Positions 2,205-62,944 of a stretch of DNA of 64,000 nt are shown here, one piece after another. The position numbers were made by a program, and so were the translations under genes. Position 1 is the stretch's first letter. Every line of letters starts with the position of its first letter. The notes beneath the pieces are model-generated. The model made no database searches. It was not told where the DNA came from and was given only the letters and a program-made list of their open reading frames with translations. Origin of the DNA: Enchytraeus crypticus (lineage: Eukaryota; Annelida; Clitellata; Enchytraeida; Enchytraeidae); contig CAJHZI010000547.1 of assembly GCA_905160935.1 (NCBI GenBank), positions 2,853,001-2,917,000 on the forward strand, given 5' to 3'.

Positions 2205-3968
2205 GTAATGTAATATTTTCTATTAATTTCGGACTTTATGATATTTTTGTAAAATCACCTATTTATTTTGATATTAGCCTACACTTAGCCTATGTTAGTG
2301 TTATTCTTTACAATTTAGAGCATTGTAAAAGCCAGAGACGTTTTGATTTCCCAAAGGGCCCAAAACTATATGATCCGTTGAGTTGAGCGGCTTGAGCCCA
2401 TTGGCGCAACCACAGGGGTATAGGGGACACGTTCCCCCAGAATTTTGAGTGGGGGACACGCATGTAAATGTCCCCCCCAGAATTTGGGTTCAAACATATA
2501 CTTGATTTGAGACCTATGGCGTGTTTTCAAGATCGCTTAAAACTGTTTAAGTATTACTGATTATAGAGCCATGCTGTAGAGTGGTAAATTTATATGCTTC
2601 CATTACATTTATGAATTAAATCTGTAGTTGTATAGTGTATGCTGAGCAACCAATGTTAGTCGATGATGACAAAACATAGAAGAGTGCCAACCAGCTGGGC
2701 TATGCGGCTGGATAAAATGATATAGGTCTATTTATAGGCTGCTGCTGTTTCCCTTGCGAGGTCAACTTATTAACCATTGAATGGAGGCACTGAAAAACGT
2801 CCTCTTCTATAATTCCTTTCATCATTGACTAGTTTTCTAGATTTAAATGGAAATTTGCACCTTTTTGGACCTTCTTTTTGCTCAGCAACTTGGAGTTGTC
2901 TCAATTGTGTTCGATGTTGTCATGGACGACAGTAGCACTCTTTTTGTTGTTATGTTAGACAGAATAAAGACAAAATTCAATTTTACCAGTACAAAATTTG
3001 TCCCATGATCCTAATTGTGTCCCCCCCAGATTTTAGCTCGTGTTTTTGCCTATGCTTGAACCAGCGGGTTGTTGGCATTGTTAGAAAGTTTGCTAAAGGA
3101 GTTATTAGAAGGAAGGATGGAGAGGATAAAATAAAGGAAGACCTTGACTTTTGAGTTGTTAAACGAATTATTTGGCATGATTTGAAAATGAAGTGTAAAT
3201 TTTAAGGCAAAGAGAGCAAACTTGTCAGACAAAAATTTTATATTAGGCAGATATAAGAAATCATTCAATCAATGAGAATTCTTTAAATTCTAGTTCATAG
3301 TTAAGACACTAACTGCAGTCACTGGAAAGAAAATAATAATGGGCTTAATCTGGTGCAAATCCTTGGCCCTTCAATCATTGACATAAACTTAGCTGTGGGC
3401 TTTCTGTGTCATTAACACTCATTTTCCTTCAGCAGCTAAATTGTCTATATTAGTGCTTGCTTCAAACTAATCATAATCTGGTCCTGGCTTATTTATTTAT
3501 TTATTTATTTACTTAGTTAGATCACCAGAAAGGATCATTCAACCCTGTACAGTTCACAAGCAATGCAAACAATCAAGTAAATGCAATGTGAACACAATTT
3601 AAATGTGAACCATGGCGAACTTAAAACGAAAAATAAAAAGTAGAAATTAAAGAATTGAAATAAAGAAATTCAAAATAAAGAAAATTAATGATAATAGGAA
3701 TGCATAATTTTATATTTAAGTTCATTATCATTAATAATTATTTAATAAGTACTGATGAAAATTAATATTGAAACAGTTAACGGAGCGAGATGATCGTGAA
3801 TTAGATGGAAGGGATAGCCAGTATCTAGGGCATTGTACAGCGATATACTTTTCGCAACAGAAAGTTCTGAACGATGGTATAGTAAATTCCGAAACTTGTC
3901 GAAATTTATAAACAGAATTTACAACATTATTTAATAGCAACGAATAATTGTAACATAAAGGCATATCA

Positions 3969-4001
<33 letters not shown>

Positions 4002-7000
4002 AAGTTGTGTTAGTAAGAGCACTTATAACTCAAGAACGTCTTGACAGATTTTAATGATCTTGGACATTTTGAATTTGCCTCAACCAGCCCTAACATAATG
4101 ACCAATAAGATATTTTAAAAATAATGGGGTTTGGCCAAAAAACGGTATAAATAAAAACACATCAAAATTATAACATGCAGCCATCTGTCGATTGACTTAT
4201 ATATACAGATTACAATTGTCTATTACGATATGCTGACATCATCAATTTAACATTCGCTAACCGGAAGTGTCGATGGCTCAATGCTATAGGCACTAGACTT
4301 TAGCTGATGTAGTCCAGGGTTCAATTCTGGCTCAAGTCACTTTAAATTGTTAAAGTTTGATAAAATTTTTAAGTTTCTTAAGAACAATTTTTTTAAACTT
4401 CTTTTAAATCTTAATATATATAACAAATTTTGTTTGTTTTATATCAATCAATCAATCAATAAGAATTTAACATCCGGTTCCTCGCCATAAGGCACTGTCA
4501 GGGACGTCTCTTGCAGACACTACACAAACAGGCGCCAAAGCACCACACGATGACGACTGAGTGCACAGAGACCACAAGAGAAAGCGAGATCAAAACAGTG
4601 CAAGTCCAAGATCCAAGGCAAGCGGGTCAAAATTTAGACCTATGGCGGAAAGAGATGGGTTTTTAGCTTGCCAAGGAAAGTACCAATACAATTACAAGAT
4701 CGAAGGTCTTGCGGCAGAGAGTTCCATATTGTGGGAGCAGAAAACATGAAGGAGCGTCTGCCCATGGCAGATTTAATATTTGGTACGGTGAGAAGGATTT
4801 TACTAGAGGGATGAAGACTACGAGAGGGTTGATAGATGGATAAAAGATCAGATAGATAGGATGGTTTACCATAATTTAAACTTTTGAAGGTCAAGGAAGC
4901 TAGCTTGAATTTTGTACGTTCGGATACCGGTAGCCAGTGCAGCTTCTTAAGAAGAGGAGAGGTGTGAGATTTGAGTATTTTTACATTACAGACGACTTGA
5001 GAAAGAGAATTTTGAACGTGGTGGAGACGAATTAGAGAGGTCTTTGGGAGATCATTTAGCAGGGAATTACAGTAATCAAGTTTAGAATGGACAAGTGCAT
5101 TAGCTAATACAGTGGCGGAATTAATATCAAGGGACTTACGAATTTGACGTAATTGACGGATATGGAAAAAAGAAGAACGACAGACTGCCGAAATATGAGT
5201 TTTAAAGTTTAGATTAGAATCAATAATTACCCCAAGATTACGTGCAGAATCTGTGGGTATTAAGGGGATATCGTTAAATGTAATGGTTGAGCTAGTTATT
5301 TTATGACGCTGCTGTTGGGTGCCAATGAGAAGGTATTCCGTTTTTGAAGGATTGACAACAAGACGATTGGCGCAAAACCAGGAGTGAACTAGATCAAGGG
5401 TAGAGGTAAGCTTAGACAGAGCATTAGAGGAATCAGGACTAGAGAACGAGACATAAATCTGGGTGTCATCAGCATAAAAGTGAAATTTCAGCATCGAATC
5501 AGTAGCGTGTGACTTAAAGGGGTGGTATATAAGGTGAAAAGGAGGGGACCAAGCACAGAACCCTGAGGGACTCCACAAGGTAGAGTGCTGGATGGTGATA
5601 AAGTGTTTTCAATAATTACAGATTGGGTACGCTGTGAAAGGTATGAGGATAGGAGGCCATGAGCCTTGTCAGAGATTCCGAAGCAAGAATTGAGTCTAGA
5701 AAGGAGTATATTGTGGTTTATGGTGTCAAAAGCAGCAGAAAGATCGAGAAGAACTAGGGCAGATACTTGTTGAGCGTCCATGGCTAGACAGAGATCATTG
5801 TGGATCTTGGTTAGTGCAGTTTCAGTTGAGTAGAATTTACGATAGGCAGATTGAAAAGGTAAGAGTGATGAGAAAGAGAAATGAAGACAAAGACGTGAGT
5901 ATATAATCCTTTCGAGGACTTTGGAAATGAAATTAAGATTAGAAATTGGTCGATAGTTGGAGAGCTCGTTTTTAGGCAAGGAAGCCTTCTTCAAAGGAGG
6001 AGTTACAACGGCTTGTTTAAATGGGATGGAAAGACACCTTCACTAAGACAGAGGTTTATTAAGTGAGTTATGGGAGGCACAAATGCATCAATGCAGGATT
6101 TGATAAGTTTAGTTGGAATGAGATCCAGAGGACAGGATGAATCAGACGAGTTAAGAATTACAGTACGAATTTCCTGATGAGTTGCCAAGCGAAAACCTGA
6201 TAATGTTGGTGGGGAAGGAGTGCATTTATCAGCAAATGAGAAACTTAAAGTAGAAGAGGGTTTGGAAGAGCAAAAGAAATGGGTAATTTTATCACTGAAG
6301 AAATTCAGGAAGGATGAGGCGAGAGTGGTAGATACGATGTCGGAAGGAAGGGATTTAGGTATATTTCTCCTGAGCAGAGAATCCATTGCATTCCACAATT
6401 TCTTCGGGTTATGTTTATTCACAGTAATGAGATTTTTAAAATAAGAGCTTTTGGATTTAGCTATTAATTTATGAACAATAGCCGATTGACGTTTAAAGAG
6501 CATTTTATTTTCTGGAGTACTAGTTCGCCTAAACTGTGCTTCAAGACTAGAGCGAAGTTTCTTTTGCTTAAGAATTTTAGGAGTGATAAGAGGCTTAGTT
6601 GGTCGTGAGCGACAGATGATTTGTTTGGGAGGAGCATGCTTGTTTAGAAGCGCTGTGACTATAGATTCAAATTGTAGACAGAAGCTAGAGACAGAGGATT
6701 CTGGATTACAACGAGAGGAGAAGACAGAATATCGGAAGAAAAATTATCGGTATAAATAGAAGATAATTTCCTAATTGTTTTAGTTGTACGTGATTGAGAG
6801 TAGACAATTAATATATTCATATAGATAGATAGATAGATGGATGGATGGATGGATGGATGGATGGATGGATGGATTGATGGATTGATGGATTGATGGATTG
6901 ATGGATTGATGGATTGATGGATGAATGGGCGGGCGGGCAGGCAGGCAGACAAGCTGATAGACAGATAGACAGACAGATAGAAAGGCAGATAGACAGACAG

Positions 7001-10000
7001 CAGACAGACAGACAGACAGACAGATAGACAGACAGATAGACAGACAGACAGATAGACAGATAGATAGATAGACAGATTGTTAGATAGACAGACAGACAGA
7101 CAGACATACAGCCAGACAGACAGACATTGTTGATAGGCGGTACGAAGTCCGTCGGGTCAGCTAGTTATGAATAAATTTATACAGAACTACGCAACAGCAA
7201 TGTTTATGAATATCACTTAACTTTAAAATTGTAAGTTCTTTAAATATATTGTTCGTATGACTACGATACTCTGCATGATGAATTATTCTAATTGCTCGTT
7301 TTTGGAGTACTATCAATTCGTTGAGCAGTGTTTTAGAAGCGTTCCCCCAAACAATATTACAATAAATTAGATGCGGATATATTAGACTGTAGTATAAATT
7401 TAACATACAATGTTTAGGTAACTTAGTTTTAACCCGATGGAGTAATCCAATGGATTTGGCTAATTTTTGTGCAGTATAAGAAATATGATATTGCCATGAT
7501 AATTTTTTCATCAAGAATCACTCCCAAAAATTTAGTCTTATCTATTCTAGAAATGTTGATATCATCTATGCATATATGAAAATTTTCAGTATTATTGTTA
7601 TATTTGTATTTATACCCAAATAGCATATAATTGGTTTTTTGTATATTTAGGGTTAATCTATTTGCTTTAAACCACTCAGAGAGTGTTAGGAGTTCAGTAT
7701 TAATTGAATTCACTAGTTTCAAAATATCAGGGTTTGTGCAGATAATATTTGTATCATCTGCAAATAATATGAAGGTAAGAATTTTACTAATCTCAGATAT
7801 GTCATTGACATAAATCAGAAACAACAAAGGTCCCAATATTGAACCTTGTGGGACACCGCATTGAATAGTTCTATAATTTGATTCTGAATTATTATATACC
7901 ACATATTGCTGTCTATTGGTTAAGTAACTTTTTAAAAGTGTATTAAATACTCCCCTAAAACCATACATTTCTAGTTTTTTAAGTAATATTTCATGGTTTA
8001 AAGTGTCAAAAGCTTTTGAGAGATTTATGAAAATACCCAAACAAATTTTTTTATTGTCAATAGCTTTAGACACCCTATCATGCATGTTTAATAGGGCCAT
8101 ATATGTAGAGTGCTTTTTCTTGAATCCATATTGGGCTGAAGTAATGATTTTGTGATGGTCAATAAAAGAGAGCATTCTAATGGCAATAATTTTCTCAAAT
8201 ATTTTAGAGAAGCAAGTTAAAAGACTGATTGGTCTATAATTTGAAATTTCGTTACTAGGACCTGACTTAGGAATCGGACATACTTTGGCAATTTTCATTT
8301 TACTTGGAAGTGTAGAATTCATAATACATAGATTTAGTACAATTGCTAAAGGTTTGGCTAGGTACTAGATTATATTTTTTAGAAGAATGGACGATACCTC
8401 ATCGAAACCTGCACTCGATGTATTTTTTGTAGATTGGACTATGTTAATGATTTCATATTGATCGGTTAGATAGAGAGCACATGTGTTGGAGATTTTACTT
8501 TTGTCAGAAATGAAATCATGAAAAGACTTTTTTAGGGATTTTATCAGCTAGGGATTTTCCTAATCCAATAAAATAGTCATTAAACTCTCAGATATAACTT
8601 TTTTATCAGATACCATTTCACTATTTAAATTATAACATTCCTGAATAGATTTAGACTTATTTGGTTTTAAAATGCTATTAATGCACTGCCATGTTTTCCT
8701 AGGGTCATGTTTATATTTAAGCAATTGATCTGAATAAAATTTCCTTTTGCGCAATTGTTAAGAGTGAGTTTAATTTATTCCTATAAGCAATAAACTTAAG
8801 TGTATTTTCATATGTATTTGACTGCTTATAGACTTTATAAAGTTTAGATTTATTTCACATGATATTGCTAAACCTCGAGTCATCCATTCTTTTCGAGGAG
8901 CATTTCTACTTTTATCAGATTTAGTTTTAGGGAAACATAAATTAAACCACGTTCAAATATTTCTAAAAAACTCATTATATACTATTTCTGGGTTTGCAGT
9001 ATTAATATTTTCATATTTGTAAATTTGGGCCCAATCAATATCATTAGCACAAAAAAGTTTAAATTTATTAGTAGATTTTTGATTAAATATTCTTTCTTTG
9101 TAGTTCGAATTAGTCGCTGGATGATTTGAAGCGCTAAATTTACTGAGGTGGCTGAAAATTATTGGATAATGGTCTGTTGTATCATCATAAAGTATTGCAG
9201 ATTTACAGATGCTAACATCAACATTAGTAAAAATATTGTCAATTAAGGTCGCAGAAGTATTAGCAACTCTGCTCGGCTTGTTGATTGCAGGTAGCATACT
9301 ATGAGATACAGTACAACTCTCGTGATAAGACCGCCACAACAGCCGGAATCTGGCCGCTACAGCGCCATTGCAGCCCCGCTACAACGACGCTGTAGTCCCG
9401 CTGTAGCGGCCGCATAGCTCCGTTATCGCGGCCAGATTCTAGCGCGAAAGGCGCGAGAATCACGAGTGACTCCCTTTTTAAGGCGGAGCTTAAAAGTTAA
9501 CTACGACAGTTATTGAAAGATAACTCCATGGGTCATCTTATCGCTTTACAGTGCCTCCTGTGGCGCAATGTAGCCGTTTGAAAGTTTGCTGCGAGAACTA
9601 ATTGTAATCTTTCATAAACAAAGATGAACGAGATTTACGAGACTGAATGCGCTCTAAGTGACATGTAAATTTGATATTGAAGTTAAACATTTACATCGAT
9701 CGTCTTCAGTGCAATGCCAAGTGTCAGGTTCAAGGTACTTTCATACTCAAAGTCTGCTTTCGCGCTCCATAACAGCACTCCTTAGATCTTCTGAGGTGGT
9801 TTCCCATTGCCTTCCTCAGTTAGATGGATTAATTACCATTTAATCCTGGGGAGAAAAATTTTGTGGTGAGGTGGGCCCCTCTTTCCATCCTCAGATCCTG
9901 CCTTAGTCGCCTCTTACATACACGCTGCAGATTGTTAGCGGTTGCCCTATTCTGCAGTGGTCTAACCACACCCGACCACAGCACGGGGGCATATAAAATA

Positions 10001-12975: not shown

Positions 12976-15137
12976 TATATATATATATATATATATAATA
13001 TATTTTTTCTTTCCTTAGGGCCCCTTCGACTCGGGGGCCCCTCAGACCCTAGCTACGACACTGCAAATTCATACTGAGAGTCTGCTTTCACGCTCCATAA
13101 ATAACAATAAAAAATCATCAATATTATTCCTTCACTTAGGCTATTCTTTATCGATAGCATGGTTTTCACTGTCCCGGACACAACACGGGGATCATTAGAC
13201 ACGTTTAAGTATAGCCTTCCTTCTGAACTTATTATATTAGAAAACTCAATTAGATCTATTTACAATGAGTAGTCTCTTCTTGTTGTAAAATGGATAAGAA
13301 AGAGAGCGCTAACGATTTTTTAATTGAGACGTCACGTGGAGAACTCTCCAAATACGTCACCGGCTCAATTTCTAGAATATAACAGATAAACATGTACATG
13401 CTTACAGTTCCGTTGTATGACGAATCAAACGCCAAACATTCATTGAATACATTATCTTCTAGTGCTTTATGTGAAATTTTGTGAAATAAAACATATTTTC
13501 TTTCATTTTTTCTTTCAGTATGACTATTTCGAAGTTCAAAATCATATTCAATGGTCAATCAGCCATAAATATTGTAATAACTAAAATGTTTAGTTGAATT
13601 ATAGGCCTATCTTCTCTAGTTCTCTATACATGTAGACTGAAGAACTAAAATTTACAATTGATTATGCTACATTGATGTATGTGCATTTGATCATGATTGA
13701 TATATGCTACATTGATGTAAGATACTCGACCGCGGGTCAGTATGTGCCGGGTTCAAATCCTGGGGTCGCCTTTCACTGACATCGCTTTCGACTGAGATAA
13801 CTAACATTTACATTAGCTTTTTTACATTAAGTGCACATAAAGCTGGTAGAGCTACTGTTAACTTCAATTAGCGTTAATAGAAAATTTTGAAACTTAAAAT
13901 TTAATTTAAAATACGCAGTGGTTAGGATGTACTGGGATGTACGCGGTGAACAAGGTCTTGGAATAAGAAGACTACTGGAAGGACTTATAGGATTAAGACT
14001 TTCTGGTAGGATATGTTGACATCATCTATTCAACTGCTTTTAAACGAAAGCCTCGGTGGTTTAGTGGTGTAGATGCTAGGCTTTAGATCATGGGGTTCGG
14101 GGTTCGATTCTGGCTCACTTTAATTTTTTCGGTTTCTTAGGGATATGTTCAGGGTTAGGGTAAAGGGTAGGGTGTAGGGTTAGGGATAGTTAAAAAAGTT
14201 AATTAAAAATTAAATTCAATTTGTTTTTCAAAGTCTATTCCACAATGACAATTAAGCTCCTCCCACTAGTCCTCTTATTCGACTCTTGGACCTCGTCACC
14301 GTGTACATCCTAACCACTGCGTTTAAAATCGTAACATTTTGTTACAAATAATTTAAAATATTAATGGCTATAGAAGCATAGACCCTATGCATAGTGCAGA
14401 ACACTCTTTTAGTTCAAAAACTCCAGGCATTAGCCAAAATTTACATTTTCCATGTTAATTGGAATTGCATCAAGTAACGTATAAAACATTTCTATCTATG
14501 TACATGCATATGATATTGGTTTCTTTAAAGAATTCTGAGTAGTTTTATTCAGAATTAAATAGAGTTACTTATTTCTATTCAATTTACGCAGTGTAAGCCA
14601 ACTTCGACAACTTTTAGGCCTATATTGAAAACAGCTTTTTCTTATTTTTTGAGATCTTTTTAGGTATTGATTTATTGAAAGGCTTATGCTACATTAGTAT
14701 AACGTCCGCCTTAGGATTGAGAGGTTCTGGTTCAAATACAAGTTTGGTTAAAATTGACCATTTTCTTAGATGTTTCTTCTATGCACACATGTAGACCTAC
14801 ATTGAAGTATAGGCCTATATACATATATATATATACATATATATATATATGTATGTATATATATATATGTATATGTATATGCATATATACTTTTAAATAT
14901 ATATATATTTGTGCAATGCCCACTGGCAGGTCCATGGTATGCACTCCTCTCTATCTTCTGGTTTCCTCTTCATGACTATATACATGTACGAGTGGATATC
15001 TCTCAATCATCGAACATTCAATTCTATATATCACTATTCTTGGGGGATTCTGCTTATGACGAGGTGACCCCCTAAGCCTTCCTCACCTTCGACTAACATT
15101 TGCTGAGCATGTGCACTGAGAAAACAATCCTGTTTAC

Positions 15138-15551: not shown

Positions 15552-18500
15552 TTGTCGATTAGTCAAGGTTTGTCAGCATGTGATTGATAACTCAACAGTT
15601 TATAGACCTACTGGGGCCAAAGTGATAAATCATTACAGACTTGTAATGATTTATCACTTGTAATGATTTATCAGACTGCAACAGATTGTGGGGGTCGATA
15701 AATACAACCAATGAGAATCGAACTTTTCCTTAAATCCCTCTCTGCAACTTCGATAAAAATACTTTCAATATTTTCATTCATAATAGTAAGATCATTAATG
15801 ATACTAAATTGTTCATGCATATTGACAAAGATTCCAACACCTCCACCTGGCTTGATGGGGCGAGAACAAGATACAAAATTATAGCCCGGTAAAGCAAAAA
15901 TATCAGAATTAAATGGTTTCAACCAAGTTTCACTAAGACCAATCGCAACAAATTGCGCGTCAAAATGAGATACTAAGGTGCATAAATGATCATAATTTTT
16001 AGATAAACTTCTGACATTCATATGCATAAAATTACATAGGTTATTAGATTGCAAAAAAGACTTGCACAATCATTCAACCAAAACTTGGTTGAATGATTGT
16101 GCTGTCTTTGCCTAACGACAGGAGAGCTGAGAGATACACGGGTGCTCCGGGACTACGATGTGGTTCCAGGTGCCACACTCACAGTGGACATGTGGAGTGA
16201 ATGGCACAGCCTCATTGATGCAGTGCTACTGGGAGATATAGAACAGGTGCCATCAATATGGTCTTACTATTGATTATGATAAACTTTATATTACATGTTT
16301 TTTTATCCTTATCGTCATTTTGTTGTCATTGTCTAACGTCTTTGGCTGGAGCCAGTGTCGAAGTCGGTAAGATACTCGACCGCGGATCAGTAGATTCGGG
16401 GTTCAAATCCTGGGCTCTCCCGTCACTGACATCGCTTTCGAGTGAGGAAACTGACGTTAAACCTTAGCTTTTAGCTTTACGTGTCTATAATAACAGTATT
16501 GACTGCATAACCGAGGGTTTAAGGAGTACATAAAACTATTGTTTTATTGATTAAAACTCTCAATGCCCTATATCCGTTGAGTCATTTTCATTGGTCCTGG
16601 GTTAACACGTACGCGTTCCATAATTGTATAATATTATGCACTGTGTGTTTGTGATATGAAAAAATTTAAATATTAGAATATTTTGCATGAGGCGTCTCAT
16701 GACTTTGAAATGGTTTTCTTGATTTTAGATTATGTACCATTTTGGACCTAAGTTTTGCTCGGCGGCTTTAATTTGGCTCAAGAATGCTTGATATTGTCAT
16801 TGACGACAGAGGCACTCTCCTTCTTTTCTTGGTCGTATAATTAACAAGCGGTAATATCGTTGCCTTACCATCATTATAACAATTGATGACAGAATTCGTG
16901 ACAGTTGTTTGAGGTTCTCCTCTAAGGAACTATTTTAACTAAAAAGTGGATTTAACGTCAAGGTCAGAAGCCTGAAATGCTTCTCTTCAAGACGTCTGGT
17001 GTACCGGTGCACTCTGAAAGGTAAATGTCCGAGATTTTACTCTCTAATCAGTTCTACCGAAAATTTGAACTCAGGACCTCAGGAGCAGCCATTTAAAACT
17101 TCATTATACTACCTAACGCGCTTACACACTGAGCCATCGAGGCATTCGGATTGTTTTAGTATTTAACAATAATAATATTATTTTGCAGGTCTTTCAATTA
17201 GGGGTATCGCCTGACCGCACGTGCATGTTTCCGCGCCTGGAGGATATGACCGTGGAAGAGAGAAAGCAGTGGTTTGGTCGCAGAGGTTTCGTGGCACTGT
17301 ATCTAGCTGTCCACCGGGGTCAGGTTGAGCTCTGCAAGAGACTTATAGAATCCGGTTTGCTCACTGACATTTTTAACAACAGCAACAACAGAATTAAAAG
17401 CTGGTAAAGCTAATGTTATCGTCAGTTTCTTCACTCGAAAGCGATGTTAGTGACGAGCGAGCCCACGATTTGAACCCCGCACATACTGATCTGCGGTCGA
17501 ATATCTTACCGACATTGCCAGTGGCGATGTACTATAATGATATAATTTGAGTACTAGATGTCCTCCACGACAACAGTGAGCACTACGGTACCAAATCCTA
17601 TCTGATGAGAAGAGTGTGGGGTCTAAGAAGCAAACCACACTCCGAGAATACAGTCCAAGTAACGGTACTAGTTGAATGAAGGTTTATGTGTTGGACTCAG
17701 CTTCAGTGCAATGGGTGGATAGGAGAGGTCAAAGAGAAATGTTTTTAGCTGCCTATGAAACTGATTGTAAGGAAGGAAAGGCTGATTAGGAAAAGATGAG
17801 GGAATGCGCAAAGTGAAAGAAAGAGAATTCCAGATCTGTGGGACAACATGCTGGAAGGAGCGCTTGGAGAGCCTGCAGCAAGAAGGAATGCATGGTCTCT
17901 CTAGAGTGATTAACTTAGAGGACTTAGTAGACGACTGCATAGAGGTAGGTTTAAATATATAATTTATGGTTTAACGATCAAGTGGACACTAGTGATATGA
18001 CAGCCGTTCAGGTAATCAGGGATCCTTACTCTTTCAAGATGTTTTACTCTCTGTTACTTTTTAAATTACACAATCTAGCCGAATTTGATTATAGTGGCTG
18101 ATTAGAAAACCAGATATCGACAACTTAGTATGCAGTGCCGATTTAGTAAAAGTTGGATCAATTGTTATAAAACTAATTGCAGACGTTATAAATTATGCTA
18201 GTGTAAAGAATTTTAGACTAATTTAATTTTGAATATTTCGTCTAATGATATGCTATTCATTAGCTCGAAATTGCATATTTGAAGCAGTTGTGTAATGTTT
18301 GACATACAGTAGGGCCTAGTTTTAAGTAATATGAAATGTTATTATTAAATTGAAATTTCAATACCACACTCCAATCAATTAGTTTTACTTTGAGTTAAAT
18401 TAATGCCTGTAACAGGTAAATGTAATTTTACGTGATTGCATTCTTATGCCATTTAAATGCATATAGCCGGTCTTGATGTCAACAAGAAATCAGCATCAGG

Positions 18501-20000
18501 TCGTTGTCCTCTACATATAGCAGCTGCCACGGGTCAAACCACGGTTCTCAAGTATCTACTACAAGCTGGTGAGAGCTCCCTCTCTCTCTGTCTTATTGCA
18601 CTGTCTACTGGCAGGTCCATAGTATATAACGACTCCGCTCTTCTCTGTCTTCCGCTCTCCTCTTCATGTCCACATGTAAGTGAGTCTTTAAATCATCTAA
18701 CATACCTAATATCCGCCTGCCTCTGCCTCTTTTTCCTTCCATTCTACCTTCTATGACCTTTTTTAATAGACCTTCCCCCTTAGAATGTGTCCTATCCATC
18801 TCTTGCTTAATACATTTATCAATGTGTTAAGAAATAGGTGAAAGCTATGATCTACATACTCAATAATCTCTTCTTACTTTTAAACTCCTCATTAAATCAT
18901 TGCTTGACTATTTTCCTCTTATCTAACGATCTGTTGAGTAAAAGTAAAGCTTTTACAGGTTCCGGTTTTGAAAAATAAATGGAGAGTAGTCATTAGTATT
19001 AGGAAGTGAGTCAAATGAATTTAATGAATTAATTGAGTGTAAAAATGTAGGCACTAAACGTTGGACTAAGTTAAATAAATAAAAATGTGTAAACGTATGA
19101 TGAAAATTGTAGTATTAGGTCTATGTCGTTCTGTCATCCTCATATCAGTACTTAAGAAGCTGAAACCCTGAAACCAAGTTTAACGTCAGTTTCAAGCTCG
19201 ATGGCATATCAATGGCGGGGAACATTGGATTTGACCATGCATCGACTGATTCGCTGTCGAACAGCTTGCCTACAAGCCACCGGCTCAGCCCATTACTGCA
19301 TTTGGATGACGTTTATTAAAAAATTAACTTTTATGATTTCTTCCAACTACTCAACCTGAGATGCTGCTGTGGAAGACAATAGCAATTTGGATAAATTCTG
19401 ATGAATTTCTAAAATGAATCTAATATGCAGAGTGTTTGCTAGCACTAATAGTATGGGCAATGTTAGGCCTACATTTCTCATGGAAAAGCTCTATGGATAA
19501 ATTTATTAAATGAAGATCGCTTATGTAATTTGCTAACATAAAATTATCTTAACTAATTACTATAACTCGTTACAAAATTTTGCAAACTAATATGATTTCG
19601 ATGATGTCGTTATATTTTATGAACTATTTCCTGTAGGTGCATTGAGCTTTAATAATTAGTTTGAATTGTAAATATTTACATTGAAGGTGCAGACATAAAT
19701 GCAAAAGATCGGAATGGCATGACTGCAGTTCAGTTAAGCAAATTCTACAAACACAAAGCCTGTGAACAACACCTCGTGCAGTTCGGCTTCGACCTGAGAG
19801 CAAGCAAGAGCGTTAGGACGGAGCATCCAATGTTCGCTCATCAGTATTTCGATTCTTCTCTGACACCGTATTTACAAAGTAATCATGCCCAGCTGTACTT
19901 TCAACAACTTCTGCCGCCTGGTGAGTACGAAGGAACGAGTTTAAACTCTCCTAGACGTAGAATTAAAAGACCAGGTGCAAGAAAATTGGATGCGACATAG
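2018..20000 (+). CDS. ANKRD60: ANKRD60-like protein (ubiquitin-like + ankyrin repeats), 5 exons
   Basis: Coding exons are 2018-2204, 16122-16246, 17189-17354, 18467-18568 and 19687-20000. All junctions are AG/GT and the phases agree (894 nt, 297 residues plus stop). Seen: residues about 14-93 form a ubiquitin-like segment with TVGELKDIAELATG, QRLHYLDRGEL, DYDVVPGATLTVDMW and then EWHSLIDAVLLGD. Residues about 105-160 carry WFGRRGFVALYLAVHRGQ, followed by ankyrin repeats (CPLHIAAATGQ, LLQAGADINAKDRNGMTA) and a basic tail. Known: vertebrate ANKRD60 has the same order, with a DVVPG turn and an FVALY.A.HRG ankyrin start. ANKUB1 is the nearest alternative, but it has a second Ubl and a long tail that are absent here. 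Function in the family is poorly known; no enzymatic motif is seen. An in-frame TAA lies 9 bp before the first ATG. Confidence 0.87.
2397..3050. repeat. Possible degenerate MITE with C/G-tract ends
   Basis: Runs of C or G next to AGAATTT/AGATTTT recur at 2430-2490 and 3028-3045 in opposite arrangement (GGGGACACGTTCCCCC, TGTCCCCCCCAG). TTGGCGCAACCAC at the left and a partly inverted counterpart at the right suggest decayed terminal inverted repeats. One fold-back module (2832-2945) sits inside. Boundaries are uncertain. Confidence 0.3.
2832..2945 (-). repeat. Solo copy of fold-back module
   Basis: Shares with the fold-back element the order TTTGCACC..TTTTGGACC, TTTTGCTC and GTTCGATGTTGTCAT, and ends GACGACAGTAGCACTCT. 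The 16.7 kb and 58.8 kb copies share that terminal motif. It is about 110 bp with no ORF. Confidence 0.55.
3491..3968 (-). mobile_element. LINE-B, 3' part: ORF2 C-terminus and 3' UTR
   Basis: From 3964 down to a stop near 3731 the minus strand encodes MPLCYNYSLLLNNVVNSVYK through FRTFCCEKYIAVQCPRYWLS to NINFHQYLLNNY. This is the conserved C-terminal end of CR1/Jockey-like ORF2 proteins (Y-x-GP-x-WNSLP-like followed by an F-x-x-x-L end). The 3' UTR runs to a (TTTA)n tail at 3491-3520. The reading frame continues at 7165 once the Helitron between is removed. A solo copy of this 3' UTR lies at 38935-39122. Confidence 0.8.
4262..4350 (+). repeat. tRNA-like module inside Helitron
   Basis: TCGATGGCTCAATGCTATAG and CCAGGGTTCAATTCTGGCTC resemble RNA polymerase III box A and box B with a tRNA-like spacing. 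A related copy is at 14009-14130, where the sequence upstream (GATATG.TGACATCATC) also matches. It is a retained tRNA-like piece of the element, not a tRNA gene: no cloverleaf could be closed. Confidence 0.45.
4446..6815 (-). mobile_element. LINE-A (L2/CR1-type non-LTR retrotransposon), 5'-truncated
   Basis: The minus strand encodes a pre-RT region (about 6815-6003, e.g. KTIRKLSSIYTDNF), then reverse transcriptase: LSNYRPISNLNFISKVLERI, QSAYRKFYSTETALTKIHND, LLDLSAAFDTINHNILLSRL, GVPQGSVLGPLLFTLY. After one frameshift near 5500-5580 come FHFYADDTQIYVSFS with the catalytic YADD, then GVIIDSNLNFKTHI and the end RSFMFSAPTIWNSLPQDLRS. Another break is near 6000. The 3' end is a (TTGA)n tail at 4446-4462. 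The endonuclease is absent, lost to 5' truncation. It lies wholly within the Helitron; a related 3' end is at 44885-45180. Confidence 0.85.
6823..7128. repeat. GATA/GATG/GACA tetranucleotide microsatellite
   Basis: About 300 bp of GATA, GATG, GATT and GACA units in blocks, inside the 3' end of the Helitron. Open frames across it (poly SVCLSVYL or HPSIHPSI) are repeat artefacts. Confidence 0.9.
7165..9318 (-). mobile_element. LINE-B, RT and endonuclease C-terminal part
   Basis: The minus strand encodes the endonuclease end (MLPAINKPSRVANTSATLID, NIFTN, TDHYPI), a pre-RT stretch with frameshifts (8341-8950) and then RT: [90 protein letters not shown] with the catalytic FADD. An extra A in a short A-run near 7505 shifts frame at FLGVILDEK/LSWQYHISY. 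The ORF then runs to the Helitron at 7164. It belongs to the CR1/Jockey group by RT motifs. Several frameshifts mean it is dead. Confidence 0.85.
9319..9466. mobile_element. GC-rich palindromic element at LINE-B break
   Basis: CTCGTGAT at 9319 and ATCACGAG ending 9466 form terminal inverted repeats. Inside, AATCTGGCCGCTACAGC is mirrored by GCTGTAGCGGCCGC and GCGGCCAGATTCT. Its GC content is far above the surroundings. It directly abuts the point where LINE-B coding sequence stops. Confidence 0.6.
9650..10110. repeat. Dispersed repeat fragments (GTCGCCTCTTAC / GTAAGAGGCGAC)
   Basis: GTCGCCTCTTAC at about 9907 and GTAAGAGGCGAC at about 10081 are inverted copies of a motif also seen, degenerate, at 20936. 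CTGCTTTCGCGCTCCATAA at 9756 recurs at 13082 (CTGCTTTCACGCTCCATAA). No convincing protein. I read this as mixed non-coding repeat scraps. Confidence 0.35.
10480..10760 (-). mobile_element. LINE ORF2 3' fragment
   Basis: The minus strand reads FKSYACKYVNSWNQIPPDIR then SSRSLAEFTKRYK: the W-N-x-(I/L)-P-x-D-I-R...S-x-x-x-F-x-K motif that closes many CR1/I-group ORF2 proteins. The upstream part (10620-10760) is weaker but in the same orientation. It was too broken for an ORF call. Confidence 0.6.
12415..12880 (+). mobile_element. LINE ORF2 C-terminal fragment with GAT tail
   Basis: Plus strand: MYACETWEITTKINHKLNYF then QQRCLRRILNIHYWDHIK and RRLSFFDHLLRM. This is the GCETW...RCLRRIL...FFGHLLRM region that ends many RTE/Jockey-group ORF2s. 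After a break near 12730 it continues STTNKDLRALNISWEDAVKI to a (GAT)n tail at about 12861. Clearly a decayed 3' fragment. Confidence 0.75.
12893..13003. repeat. TA microsatellite
   Basis: Repeats of TATA with a short TATAATATTC-type lead-in at 12893-12935. No other content. Confidence 0.9.
13715..13840 (+). mobile_element. SINE family 1 copy (5' degenerate)
   Basis: AAGATACTCGACCGCGGGTC and GGGTTCAAATCCTGGGGTCG carry the tRNA-like core and a perfect box B. The 3' half (CACTGACATCGCTTTCGACT) continues directly into the right arm of the inverted-repeat composite. Confidence 0.65.
14000..14260 (+). mobile_element. Second copy of Helitron-internal region, with TTAGGG-like stretch
   Basis: GATATGTTGACATCATC, then GGTGGTTTAGTGGTGTAGAT and GGGGTTCGATTCTGGCTCAC, parallel 4228-4350 inside the Helitron in the same order. 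14150-14190 contains GGGTTAGGG, GGGTAGGG and GGGTTAGGG, a short telomere-like patch. Neither a TC start nor a CTAG end could be placed, so the copy is partial. Confidence 0.45.
14685..14752 (+). repeat. tRNA-like SINE remnant
   Basis: CTACATTAGTATAACGTCCG and GAGGTTCTGGTTCAAATAC look like a worn box A/box B pair of a tRNA-Leu-like head. Too diverged for a functional tRNA. Confidence 0.35.
14810..14912. repeat. TA/TG-rich microsatellite
   Basis: TATATATA interspersed with CATA and TGTA. Open frames on both strands here (IYIYI, HIHIY) are repeat artefacts. Confidence 0.85.
14923..15135 (-). mobile_element. Chimeric short element with RTE 3' tail (copy 1)
   Basis: On the minus strand it starts after a TA tract with GGTAAACAGGATTGTTTTCT, then the AGTCGAAGGTGAGGAAGGC region and CCTCGTCATAAGCAGAATC. 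It ends with the RTE-like LINE 3' terminus (CCATGGACCTGCCAGTGGGC). The head is unrelated to the LINE; the tail is shared. Same layout at 22607-22858 and 57712-57958. Confidence 0.6.
15139..15205. repeat. TA microsatellite
   Basis: Pure TA runs broken by ACGTGTG, at the 5' end of the chimeric short element as also seen at 22855. Confidence 0.85.
15366..15548. repeat. Long TA microsatellite with CAGTATATA interruptions
   Basis: Nearly 180 bp of TA with ACAGTATA and TACTACATATA interruptions. Four overlapping open frames rich in Ile/Tyr are artefacts of this tract. Confidence 0.9.
15620..15674. repeat. Perfect 18-bp hairpin plus direct repeat
   Basis: AAGTGATAAATCATTACA (15620-15637) pairs with 15642-15659 across a 4-base spacer. 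TGTAATGATTTATCA is then repeated directly at 15660-15674. It marks the low-coordinate edge of the LINE endonuclease fragment. Confidence 0.8.
15675..16063 (-). mobile_element. LINE endonuclease N-terminal fragment (probably LINE-B)
   Basis: The minus strand reads NFMHMNVRSLSKNYDHLCTL, FVAIGLSETWLKP, GGGVGIFVN and ILIGCIYRPPQ. These are the start motifs of the apurinic endonuclease of CR1/Jockey-type LINEs (N-x-RSL, SETWL with the catalytic Glu, YRPP). In orientation and content it is the missing upstream part of the element at 7165-9318, minus about 50 residues. It sits 50 bp before ANKRD60 exon 2. Confidence 0.78.
16064..16102. repeat. Perfect 18-bp hairpin at LINE/exon boundary
   Basis: GCACAATCATTCAACCAA (16064-16081) pairs with 16085-16102 across AAC. 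The left arm belongs to the LINE side and the right arm runs into the acceptor region of ANKRD60 exon 2, 19 bp before the exon. Confidence 0.85.
16122..16246 (+). CDS. ANKRD60: ANKRD60-like exon 2 (second half of Ubl)
   Basis: The acceptor is CCTAACGACAG|GA and the donor CAG|GTGCCA. The exon completes a split Gly codon and encodes residues 64-104, including VLRDYDVVPGATLTVDMW and EWHSLIDAVLLGDIEQ. DYDVVPG is the last turn and strand of the ubiquitin-like fold and is the best ANKRD60 signature in the gene. The acceptor lies only 19 bp from a perfect hairpin (16064-16102) that marks the 5' end of a LINE fragment, so the upstream intron edge has been rebuilt by an insertion. Confidence 0.88.
16343..16482 (+). 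mobile_element. SINE family 1 copy
   Basis: TTGGCTGGAGCCAGTGTCGA, GATACTCGACCGCGGATCAG and GGGGTTCAAATCCTGGGCTC give a tRNA-like head with an intact box B (GGTTCAAATCC). The tail is CACTGACATCGCTTTCGAGT...GACGTTAAACCTTAGC. It lies in ANKRD60 intron 2. Confidence 0.8.
16728..16815 (-). repeat. Solo copy of fold-back module
   Basis: ATTTTGGACCTAAGTTTTGC, TTGGCTCAAGAATGCTTGAT and TTGTCATTGACGACAGAGGC follow the module order of the fold-back element. It ends GCACTCT like the copy at 2945. Confidence 0.55.
17021..17147 (-). mobile_element. SINE family 2 copy (diverged)
   Basis: AATGTCCGAGATTTTACTCT, TTTGAACTCAGGACCTCAGG and ATTTAAAACTTCATTATACT match family 2 in reverse. The box A end reads ACTGAGCCATCGAGGCAT. 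In ANKRD60 intron 2, ending about 40 bp before exon 3. Confidence 0.65.
17189..17354 (+). CDS. ANKRD60: ANKRD60-like exon 3 (linker, first ankyrin repeat)
   Basis: The acceptor is TATTTTGCAG|GTC and the donor TCCG|GTTTGC. It encodes residues 105-159 plus the first base of an Ala codon. The segment starts LGVSPDRTCMF and passes through a charged linker (MTVEERKQWF) into RGFVALYLAVHRGQVELCKRLIES, a canonical ankyrin helix pair. A minus-strand SINE starts about 40 bp after the donor. Confidence 0.88.
17394..17524 (-). mobile_element. SINE family 1 copy
   Basis: Reverse of family 1: AAAAGCTGGTAAAGCTAATG, ACTCGAAAGCGATGTTAGTG, GATTTGAACCCCGCACATAC (box B inverted) and TCTTACCGACATTGCCAGTG. Begins about 40 bp after exon 3. 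Confidence 0.8.
17660..17945 (-). mobile_element. LINE ORF2 C-terminal fragment (L2-like)
   Basis: The minus strand reads RSFQHVVPQIWNSLSFTLRI and FHRQLKTFLFDLSY, the R-x-F-x-x-x-x-P-x-WNSLP...F...LKTFLF signature of L2/CR1 3' ends. 5'-truncated, within an ANKRD60 intron. Confidence 0.75.
18467..18568 (+). CDS. ANKRD60: ANKRD60-like exon 4 (second ankyrin repeat)
   Basis: A short 102-nt exon with acceptor GCATATAG|CC and donor GCTG|GTGAGA. It completes Ala160, encodes residues 161-193 and opens Gly194. The ankyrin signature G-x-CPLHIAAATGQTTVLKYLLQAG is textbook. The pyrimidine content upstream of the acceptor is weak. A 3' scrap of an RTE-like LINE begins within about 10 bp after the donor, the second mobile insertion hugging an exon of this gene. 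Confidence 0.88.
18569..18840 (-). mobile_element. RTE-like LINE 3' scrap
   Basis: Matches the 3' end of the RTE-like LINE at 34149: the minus strand encodes LLKKVIEGRMEGKRGRGRRI and LGMLDDLKTHLHVDMKRRAE before ATGGACCTGCCAGTAGACAG. Starts right after the donor of ANKRD60 exon 4. Confidence 0.8.
19687..20000 (+). CDS. ANKRD60: ANKRD60-like exon 5 (third ankyrin repeat and C-terminus)
   Basis: The acceptor is TTGAAG|GT. The exon encodes residues 195-297 and ends at TAG (19998-20000). ADINAKDRNGMTAVQLSKF is the third ankyrin repeat. After QFGFDLRASKSV comes a non-repeat tail with HPMFAHQYFDSSLTPYLQ and a basic end (SPRRRIKRPGARKLDAT). The pyrimidine tract before the acceptor is weak, but the phase and the ankyrin continuity support this splice. 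A candidate AATAAA lies at 20632-20637; no closer signal was seen. Confidence 0.86.
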
Positions 20001-24404: not shown

Positions 24405-39927
<15,523 letters not shown>

Positions 39928-41213: not shown

Positions 41214-41345
41214 TGATGCGATGTTGGTAAGATACTAGACCGCGGATCAGTATGTTGGGCGTTCAAATCCTGGGCTCCCCCGTCACTGACATCGCTTTCG
41301 AGTAAGGAAACTGACGTTAACATTAGCTCTACCAGCTTTTTACCA
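41214..41345 (+). mobile_element. SINE family 1 copy
   Basis: GATACTAGACCGCGGATCAG, GGCGTTCAAATCCTGGGCTC and CACTGACATCGCTTTCGAGT, ending TTAGCTCTACCAGCTTTTTA. Confidence 0.8.
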
Positions 41346-42372: not shown

Positions 42373-42520
42373 TAAAGCTGGTAAATCTAAGGTTAACGTC
42401 AGTTTTCTCACTCAAAAGCGATGGGATGTCAGTGATGGGCGAGCCCAGGATTTGAACCCCGCACATACTGATCCGCGGTCGAGTATCATACCGACGTCGC
42501 CACTGGTTCCAGCCAATGGC
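42373..42520 (-). mobile_element. SINE family 1 copy
   Basis: GGTTAACGTCAGTTTTCTCA, GGATTTGAACCCCGCACATA, GATCCGCGGTCGAGTATCAT and CGTCGCCACTGGTTCCAGCC. Carries a small GATGG duplication in the tail. Confidence 0.82.
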
Positions 42521-44884: not shown

Positions 44885-45180
44885 TTTCTCAGACAATATG
44901 GAACTCTCTGCCACAAGATATTCGATCTTGTAATTGTATTGGTACTTCCCTTGGCAAGCTAAAAGCCCATCTCTTTCCGCCATAGGTCTAAATTTTGACC
45001 CGCTTGCCTTGAATCCTGGACTTGCACAGTTTTTATCTCGCTTTCTCTTGTGGTCTCTGTGTACTCAGTCGTCATCGTATGTTGTTTGGGCGCCTGCTTG
45101 TGTAGAGTATGTAGGAGACGTCCCTGACATTGTCTTATGGCGAGGAACCGGACGTTAAATTCTTATTGAATGATTGATTG
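44885..45180 (+). mobile_element. LINE-A-type 3' end
   Basis: ATATGGAACTCTCTGCCACA (IWNSLPQ) and GGCAAGCTAAAAGCCCATCT, then the same 3' UTR as 4470-4700 (ATAGGTCTAAATTTTGACCC, CTTATGGCGAGGAACCGGAC) and a tail GATTGATTGACTGAT. 5'-truncated copy of the LINE-A family outside the Helitron. Confidence 0.82.
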
Positions 45181-45384
45181 ACTGATATCAATAATAATAA
45201 TAAAGAAATAAGTAATTAATTTTGGGATAACTCAAATTGCTTAGACACCAGGTAAGTGCGTTAGCTGAGAGTCACATCTCAGCTAGTAATGTCAGACTAG
45301 TATTGAAAAATATGCTTTGCTGCTGGCTCAGCTGCAGAGGCCGCAGCTTACAAGAACTTGAAGAAATATGTCGAAACCTCTAGC

Positions 45385-47880: not shown

Positions 47881-47934
47881 TATTGTTATAAAAAGTTAAG
47901 ACAAATTTGATTCATGAGAGTATTAATTGTAAAA

Positions 47935-48073
47935 AGCTGGTAAAGCTAATGTTAACATCAGTTTCCTCACTCGAAAGAGATGTCAGTGACGGGCGAGCCC
48001 AGAATTTGAACCCCGCACATACTGATCCGCGGTCGAATATCTTACCGACGTCGCCACTGGCTCCAGCCAGTAG
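47935..48073 (-). mobile_element. SINE family 1 copy
   Basis: AAAAGCTGGTAAAGCTAATG, CTCACTCGAAAGAGATGTCA, GAATTTGAACCCCGCACATA and CGTCGCCACTGGCTCCAGCC. Complete in reverse. Confidence 0.85.
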
Positions 48074-50050: not shown

Positions 50051-50066
50051 CACTACTATGAAATAT

Positions 50067-52289
50067 CTCTCTCTCTGCACTGCCTACAGGCAGGTCCATG
50101 GTACATAACGCCTTCACTCTTCTCTGTCTTCCGCCTTCCTCTTCATTTCCACATATGAGTGGGTCTTTCAATCATCTAACATACCTAATCTCGGCCTGCC
50201 CCTGCCTCCTTTTCCTTCCATTCTACCTTCTATGACCTCTTTTAATAGACCTTCCCCCCTTAGAATGTGTCCTATCCATCTCTTCTTCCTATTTCTTAAT
50301 ACATTTATCAACTGTCTATCTGTGCCAACTTTCTCCAGGACTTCCTCATTTGTAACCTTTTTGAGTCCAGCTAATCCTCTCCATTCTTCTCCAAATTCAC
50401 ATTTCCAAAGCCTCCAGTTTCCTAATATCTTCCTTCCTTAAGGTCCATGTCTCACATCCATACAATAGCGTCGTCCAAACCAAAGTTTTCACTACCTTTA
50501 TCTTTGTGTCTTTCTTTAGACTTTTTGTTAATAATTCCTTTCTACTACCAAAGGCCGCTTTTGCTTGTGCAATCCTACTGCATATTTCCGTTTCACATTT
50601 CCCATCATCGGTTATAGTATGACCCAAATATTTGAAACTCCTGTCCCAATTTCGTACCATTTATTGTGATATTAACTTCACCTTTATTATTGGACACTCT
50701 CATAACCTTGGTCTTTTTATATCAATCTTCATGCCATATCTTAGGGCCGTATCATTCAGCCTATCCATTATCTTCTGCAGTCCAATCTCGCTGCCCGCTA
50801 CCATTCCTTGATCATCTGCAAATCGTACATCTTGTAACAATTTCCCTCCTACTTTTATTCCTTCTTCCAAGTCTTCCATGGCTTCCTCCATCATTGCCTC
50901 AGCGTAAATGTTAAACAGCAGCAGCGAAATGCTACAACCTTGTCTTACTCCACGTCCTATTTCACCTTCTTCTGAGTATTCTTGTTGGATTTTGATTACT
51001 GCTCTTTGATTCATGTACAAGTTCAAAATTAGTCTTCTATCTCTCCAGTCAATTCCTATTCTTTTTAAGATATTCATCATCGTTATCCAATCAATCCTGT
51101 CAAAGGCCTTCTCGAAGTCTACAAAGCATACAAAAACGTCATTTCCATATTCTAAGCTTCTTTCGCAAAGAACCCGCATTACTCCTATTGCTTCTCTTGT
51201 GCCGCATCCTTTCCTAAAACCAAATTGTGTCTTGCTCAGTATCATCTCTGCTTTCGACTGAATGCGATTATTTACTATCTTTAATAAGATCTTCGATGCT
51301 TGAGGTATTAAGCTGATTGTTCTGTAATCCGAACACTCCACAGCATTGCCTTTTTTGGGAATTGGAATCATCACTGACTTGGTAAAGTCGTCAGGCCAAA
51401 TACCTGTACTGTACACCTCCGTACATACCTCCATTAACTTTTTGAGTGTTTCTCCTTCCAACAGTTTCAAGAAATCTGCTGGGATTTCATCTATTCCGGC
51501 TGCCTTCCCCTTCTTCATACTGTTAATTGCAGAATAAATTTCCTCCTTAATTAAATCGGGGCCCCTTTTATCGTCTTCTATGATATTCTCTTCTTCTATT
51601 TTAAAATCCTCTTGAACTGGTTTCCCAGCCTTATCATACAATTCCTCTACATATTCTCTCCATCTATCTTTTACTTCTTCCAGCTCTGTCTTCAATTCCC
51701 CATCCTTACCCATTATACTAATATTCTTTGCATCTCCTTTCTTTTCTTATCGGTTCTTGTTAATATCCTGACTTCCTGGTATAATAAATCCGACCTCCCT
51801 CTTCCATCATATTCTGCTAAATCATCACACTTTTCACTCCACCAATGATCTTTTGCTTTGTCTGTAATTCTTCCAAGTTCACTGTTTAAGCTTCTATATT
51901 TCCTTCGGCCATGACTGGTGTCAATACTTTTCCATTTCCTCCTTTCATCCATTTTGTCTAGCTACTCGCTTGTGATTCAAGGATTTTTAGCTGTATTTGC
52001 TTTAAGAAAGCCATAAACTTCTTTTGCACCTATTTTAATAGCTTCCTTTAGCTGACACCATCTTTCATTTACCCCTGTTCTTTCGTAGTCCTTCATTTCC
52101 TTAACTTTTCTTTCCACTACTTCCTGAAACTGACTTCTCTTCTCGTTCAATTCGTTCAAATTCCATCTCTTACTGCTTTTCTTCTTAAGTATTTTCTTCA
52201 GCTGAAGACCTACTTTTGCCATTACTAGATTGTGGTCTGAATTAATATCGGCTCCTGTATAAGCCCTTGAATTCTTCACACTATCAGGT
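50067..52289 (-). mobile_element. RTE-like LINE copy B, 5'-truncated
   Basis: Sister of 34149-36562. The minus strand encodes the endonuclease end (AYTGADINSDHNLVMAKVGL), the linker, and one long frame (50700-51713) with KSVMIPIPKKGNAVECSDYR, FVCFVDFEKAFDRIDWITMM, GVRQGCSISLLLFNIYAEAM and VRFADDQGMVAGSEIGLQKI. Frame then breaks near 50700, followed by YLGHTITDDGKCETEICSRI and GCETWTLRKEDIRKLEALEM. TACTATGAAATAT (50054-50066) and TACTATAAAATAT (52290-52302) are the likely target-site duplication. Amino acids differ from copy A at only a few sites, so both are recent. Confidence 0.9.
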
Positions 52290-62099: not shown

Positions 62100-62940
62100 G
62101 AAGAAAATGTGTTTTATTTCACAAAATTTCACAGAATTCACAGAGTAATCACAAAGGGGGCTTGATTCTAGGCTCTATATATGAGAAAGAGATCTAAATT
62201 TAGGGGCTTAGCACCGAATTTAGGAGGACTTGACCCTCTAATGAATGATGAGTCATTGAAATATGGAATGAAGTTTAACATCAAAAAGACAAAAAGTGAT
62301 GAGAGTGTCTGTCCCATAATAAAGGTGAAGCCAATATCACAATAAATGGTATGAAATTGGAACAGGTAAGGAGTTTTAAATATTTGGGTCATACTATAAC
62401 TGATGATGGGAACTGCAAGATTGAAATATGCAGCAGGATTACACAAGCAAACGAGGCCTTCAGTAATATGATAGAACTATTAACAAAAAGTCTAAAGAAA
62501 GACACAAAGATAAAGATAGTGAAAACATTGGTTTGGACCACGCTATTATATGGACGTGTAACGTGGACCTTAAAGAAAGGAGAAAAAAGGAAACTAGAGG
62601 CACTGGAAATGTGGATATGGAGAAGAATTTAAAGGATTAGCTGGACTCAAAAAGTTACAAATTTGGATTTTCTGGAGAGAGTTAGTACAGATAGACAGTT
62701 GATAGATGTATTAAGAAACAGTAAGAAGAGTTGGGCAGGACACATTCTAAGAGGAGGGGGTGAACTAAAAGAGGTCATAGAAGATAGAATGGAAGGAAAA
62801 AGAGGCAGGGGCAGGCCGAGATTAGGTATGTTAGATGATTTAAAGACCCACTCATATGTGGAAATGAAGAGGAAAGCGGAAGACAGTGACGAGTGGAAGC
62901 GTTATATACCATGGACCTGCCAGTAGGCAGTGCACTAAGA
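62100..62940 (+). mobile_element. RTE-like LINE copy C (3' third)
   Basis: Plus strand: EQVRSFKYLGHTITDDGNCK, KSLKKDTKIKIVKTLVWTTL, a stop at about 62630, then RQLIDVLRNSKKSWAGHILR, GKRGRGRPRLGMLDDLKTHS and WKRYIPWTCQ. It ends GGCAGTGCACTAAGA. More diverged than copies A and B and opposite in orientation. Confidence 0.87.
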
Positions 62941-62944
62941 AAGC

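Follow-up and report, generated by a model that had tools for sequence, protein, structure and literature searches.

A Short Non-Autonomous Helitron Lying in One LINE and Holding Another: Ends, Sister Copies, and an Empty Site

Introduction

In the window, a stretch of 64,000 nucleotides of Enchytraeus crypticus DNA that was analysed as a whole, a segment of 3.2 kb interrupts the coding sequence of one LINE (LINE-B) and itself holds a second (LINE-A), raising the questions of what the segment is, where exactly it begins and ends, and in which order the three elements arrived. A preliminary description took the segment for a Helitron of that full size, and regarded the LINE-B reading frame that reappears on its removal as independent proof of both boundaries. 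Helitrons are described as elements that use a Rep-helicase enzyme, insert between A and T, and carry a 3′ hairpin serving as a stop signal (PMC4778049); their ends and hairpin are described likewise in a second source, in which empty sites serve as evidence of Helitron movement (PMC6544945).

The Segment and Its Ends

The features of the locus are as follows.

3969-7164, + strand: non-autonomous Helitron copy with LINE-A nested inside, recognised by its ends (TC after A, CTAG before T), its sister copies, and an empty site
3969-4443, + strand: Helitron 5′ part, TCTATA(TA)n followed by AAACAAAGTTGTGTTAGTAAGAGCAC, matched at 80-95% identity by 39 other long hits among those scored
4444-6812, − strand: LINE-A, 5′-truncated, with its 3′ tail (TTGA)n at 4444 and reverse transcriptase (RT) pieces within 4640-6039
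6813-7164, + strand: Helitron 3′ part, with GATA/GATG/GACA arrays, hairpin, and end
7136-7153, + strand: terminal hairpin GGCGG-TACGAAGT-CCGTC, 7 bases before CTAG
7161-7164, + strand: 3′ terminus CTAG, found in 30 of the 37 sisters having a 3′ end and followed by T in 36 of 37
3500-3968, − strand: LINE-B downstream of the insertion, with C-terminal codons, stop, and 3′ UTR
7165-9300, − strand: LINE-B upstream of the insertion, with an RVT_1 match in 7429-8364; the upper limit is approximate

The terminal bases are those first described, with A at 3968, TC at 3969-3970, CTAG at 7161-7164, and T at 7165. When the sequence up to 3968 is joined to that from 7165 onward, a single open frame results on the minus strand and LINE-B neither gains nor loses a base; the joined product reads VVLYKFIHNDMPLCYNYSLLLNN and passes VVLYKFIHNDMPLCYNYS on its way to QYLLNNY and the stop, so that the exact restoration of LINE-B to its C-terminus holds good. 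However, the open frame was rejected as the sole proof of the boundaries, because in a 60 x 70 grid of cuts around both ends, 746 of the 4200 pairs also keep the frame open into the LINE-B C-terminus, and the claim of independent proof was too strong; ranked by the likeness of the product to the LINE-A C-terminus, the claimed cut is the 19th of this grid. Two grid cuts obey the Helitron rule, one starting at 3966 and one at 3969, and the latter is chosen because the sister copies begin with TCTATA and the empty site aligns without a gap. Removal of 3970-7165 yields the identical joined sequence, since T stands at both 3969 and 7165, and this one-base ambiguity is resolved only by the TC...CTAG ends of the family. 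The boundaries are thus settled by the sister copies and the empty site, which uphold both ends and the Helitron identity, and the frame agrees with them.

Without LINE-A, the Helitron measures about 0.83 kb, so that the ends of the proposed 3.2 kb element stand and its size does not. Two tetranucleotide arrays lie in the segment, at 6824-6928 and 6959-7126, and outside LINE-A there is no ORF of at least 150 aa, save one running over the repeat array. The hairpin of the window copy includes a G.T pair, and its fold does not stand out from shuffles (z 0.22). The element is a short non-autonomous Helitron with a variable tetranucleotide array, which is a known kind.

Sister Copies in the Same Genome

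Sister copies were sought in the window's own genome (524,188,772 bases in 802 contigs). With the 3′ part as the query, 68 matches were obtained (40 scored of 1494 candidates), and 33 of the 68 matched rows, the window's own included, end exactly at query base 385, which corresponds to 7164 (hand count). The 5′ part gave 72 matches (40 scored of 340 candidates). Forty copies were fetched, comprising the 39 other long matches of the 5′ search (L010-L048) and one copy chosen by its 3′ match (L049), and the 3′ end lies downstream of 5′ sequence in 38 of them (20 of 20 in a first batch and 18 of 20 in a second), the exceptions being L036 and L042; this count includes L026 by a 21-base match only, L045 by 22 bases, and L049 with part of the 5′ region only. 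L035 and L036 share their flank and appear to be a single locus counted twice. The preliminary description had called for other copies with the same TC start and the same 3′ end and had named their absence as evidence against it; a large family with many loci sharing these termini is what the genome holds.

The typical sister 3′ end consists of GGCGG, a loop, CCGCC, and GGGTCAGCTAG, followed by T. An automatic rule applied to the 40 copies finds TC preceded by A in 29, by C in 2, and by G in 1, the remaining 8 being unusable or not found, and in five of the 29 A-preceded copies, as well as in L015 and L029, a (TA)n run puts TC more than 40 bases upstream and the start is unsure. In 25 of the 40 copies, TC is at most 26 bases away from the conserved 5′ part, and the preceding base is A in 24 of these and C in L037; in the other 15, (TA)n growth obscures the 5′ start or the start was not found. 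Beyond the 3′ end, the next base is T in 36 copies and A in one (L017, after CTAG), and three copies have no 3′ end at the threshold used; among the 37 that have one, L043 and L045 show decay there. The mean divergence of the 5′ part is 7.3% among the window copy and 18 sisters (L010-L029 minus L015 and L028), the window copy differs from the majority of this set by 4.9%, and their tree looks star-like.

The window and its sisters, the latter for the most part, have the TC...CTRR ends of canonical non-autonomous Helitrons. The target is A/T without duplication, as seen in the bases flanking the close starts and the 3′ ends and in one gapless empty site. A hairpin precedes the 3′ end, with a stem of five perfect base pairs (GGCGG/CCGCC) in 25 of the 37 sisters, although it is short, and the version in the window does not fold better than shuffled sequence. 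A Helentron-type relative might be considered in place of a canonical Helitron, as tandem arrays are described in Helentron-derived elements too (PMC7492417), but the A and T flanks, the TC and CTAG ends, and the hairpin before the 3′ end fit the canonical type as it is described (PMC4778049, PMC6544945), and a Helentron is accordingly very unlikely.

The same 3′ end is also joined to other bodies. Six of eight further carriers (L052-L059) have no related 5′ part within the 2.2-2.4 kb upstream, and a stretch of 550-772 bases that includes the arrays and extends to the 3′ end is common to L054, L056, L057, and L059. Overall, 2 of 45 other copies, L054 and L058, show the CCGTC stem variant seen in the window, and none of the 37 sisters has it; the view of T at 7152 as a private mutation of the window was dropped, as these two copies carry the same T. 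Because the 3′ end with its array is attached to several different bodies, it is conceivable, though improbable, that the array is a place where Helitron ends are swapped and that the window copy, which combines the rarer CCGTC end with the common 5′ body, is a chimera.

LINE-B and the Empty Site

LINE-B has an RVT_1 match of 4.9e-36, and its RT matches the solved LINE-1 ORF2 (1.8e-13); its frame shifts between about 7430 and 7510, with stops further up. Another LINE-B copy was met through the flank of the sister L025, in a longer stretch (L050; C424:618500-628400), and this copy aligns to the joined flanks of the window with 94% identity and no gap at the junction. The joined flanks of the window read GGCATATCA followed directly by TTATGAATAA, as compared with GGCTTATCATTTTGAATAA in the L050 copy; in translation, the L050 frame reads LIQNDKPLCYNYS and the joined window FIHNDMPLCYNYS, with equal spacing. 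The L050 copy has stops of its own and contains a separate insert of about 0.54 kb (reverse strand, 3439-3981), with the 12-base repeat ATATATGAAAAT on either side. This insert resembles, by eye, the LINE family at 34495-35316.

The empty-site evidence consists of this one LINE-B copy. A second LINE-B 3′ end in the window, at 38941-39121, is 93% identical and is cut off in the 3′ UTR, short of the insertion site. The empty LINE-B copy that the preliminary description had asked for is therefore available, and the finding that would have spoken against the insertion, namely the same 3.2 kb in other LINE-B copies, did not appear in the sole other copy seen to cover the site. Neither the LINE-B RT nor the Helitron end pattern had a match in viral contigs.

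LINE-A and the Order of Events

The LINE-A ORFs lie within 4640-6743 on the minus strand, and RVT_1 is matched at 2.3e-21 for 5488-6039 and at 1.9e-4, below the cut-off, for 4640-5608. The preliminary description assigned LINE-A to L2/CR1, a putative label beside these RVT_1 matches. The 3′ limit at 4444 follows from the second LINE-A end in the window, 44893-45181 (92%), and the right limit, 6812, is good to a few bases. With these second ends, the LINE-A and LINE-B copies are 3′-anchored and 5′-shortened. The LINE-A RT piece had no match in plasmids, and an alignment search of other collections with three LINEs returned one short RT match (L001).

Among the first 20 sisters, most have GTTTTATA directly followed by TATTC across the LINE-A site. 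Four bases (ATAT) at this site may be a target duplication or chance.

The precedence of LINE-B over the Helitron, as first described, is upheld by the sister copies and the empty site; the arrival of LINE-A before or after the move of the Helitron had been left open. A LINE-A already present in the Helitron at its move into LINE-B, with a donor since lost or lying outside the copies examined, would be compatible with the window by itself, as Helitrons can carry inserts, and the scoring covered 40 of 1520 junction candidates and 40 of 340 candidates for the 5′ part. Among the 38 sister copies with both ends (20 and 18 in the two batches), none has a LINE-A match of at least 40 bases between the ends; matches of about 30 bases occur there in L014 and L028, within repeat-like sequence, and the eight further 3′-end carriers L052-L059 have no LINE-A match of at least 60 bases. 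The junction between Helitron and LINE-A (query 4344-4543) is whole only in the window among the 40 scored candidates, and the other 39 rows cover its LINE-A side, with identities of 89-98% (95-98% in 38 rows). One of these, on contig C285, reached about 30 bases further and was considered as a second junction, but proved to be LINE-A after unrelated DNA. An earlier LINE-A carried along by the Helitron would thus require a lost or unseen donor, and the LINE-A-free sisters together with the junction search make it highly improbable. Because none of the other Helitron copies examined contains LINE-A, the most likely order of arrival is LINE-B, then the Helitron, and finally LINE-A.

Proposed Course of the Insertions

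The reading that best fits these results, with a probability of roughly 0.97, is that LINE-B, in place first, received a Helitron of about 0.83 kb between an A and a T, and that LINE-A later entered the Helitron. The non-autonomous Helitron would have inserted in the LINE-B C-terminal coding sequence and, as rolling-circle elements do, would have added no target duplication; the 5′-truncated LINE-A would subsequently have entered it between GTTTTATA and TATTC, as suggested by its absence from the examined sisters. The ends, target, hairpin, and empty site are observed, and the Rep-helicase enzyme and a rolling-circle step are presumed from the family. The profile PF14214 for the Rep-helicase partner gave no candidate in the same genome, yet none of 14 controls matched it either. 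A rearrangement or assembly join in place of transposition, which might be suspected from the richness of the 3′ part in simple repeats, where assemblies can err, has a negligible probability against exact ends common to many loci and a gapless empty site.

Comparison with Known Helitrons

The closest descriptions compared are those of Hel-2 and Helraiser. Hel-2, a group of non-autonomous Helitrons of Lepidoptera and insect viruses, is described with TC and CTAG ends, A and T flanks, a 3′ hairpin, and a variable tetranucleotide repeat inside; by that description, the (CTGT)n repeat of Hel-2 lies downstream of the 5′ subterminal inverted repeat, whereas the GATA/GACA arrays of the window end just before the 3′ hairpin (PMC4344730). 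Helraiser and Helibat1 likewise have TC...CTAG ends that abut A and T in the target, but Helraiser is described as coding for its own transposase, where the window element has no ORF of at least 150 aa outside LINE-A (the array ORF excepted), and as having a 19-bp palindrome 11 bases from the end, where the window has a 5-bp stem at 11 bases (PMC4778049). None of the papers retrieved for the letters GGGTCAGCTAG concerns Helitrons, as judged by title.

Other Repeats in the Window

A recurrent LINE family occupies 34145-36388, 50063-52284, 62242-62943, and 18583-18822, with two copies 95% identical over 2.2 kb and the other pieces at 81-86%. Large imperfect palindromes lie at 233-1213 and 1621-1961 (83% and 87% by self-BLAST). 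A short repeat, about 100-140 bases long and SINE-like by eye, is dispersed over the following copies, which are roughly 80-91% alike.

13717-13820, 16343-16471, 17396-17525, 39289-39408, 41218-41343, 42374-42515, 47932-48069: dispersed SINE-like repeat

Within the Helitron, 4208-4334 resembles 13991-14117 at 71% (self-BLAST), and the latter is contained in an element with terminal inverted repeats (ACGCAGTGGTTAGGATGTAC) at 13913-14322, its limits set by eye. This pair looked tRNA-like by eye, and ARAGORN and Rfam show no tRNA.

Conclusions

The locus is an ordinary nested insertion and leaves the knowledge of Helitrons unchanged. It serves as a worked example in which a single locus combines three elements, exact boundaries, an empty site, and good support for the order of arrival, and it provides the termini and the target rule for one Helitron family of the genome.
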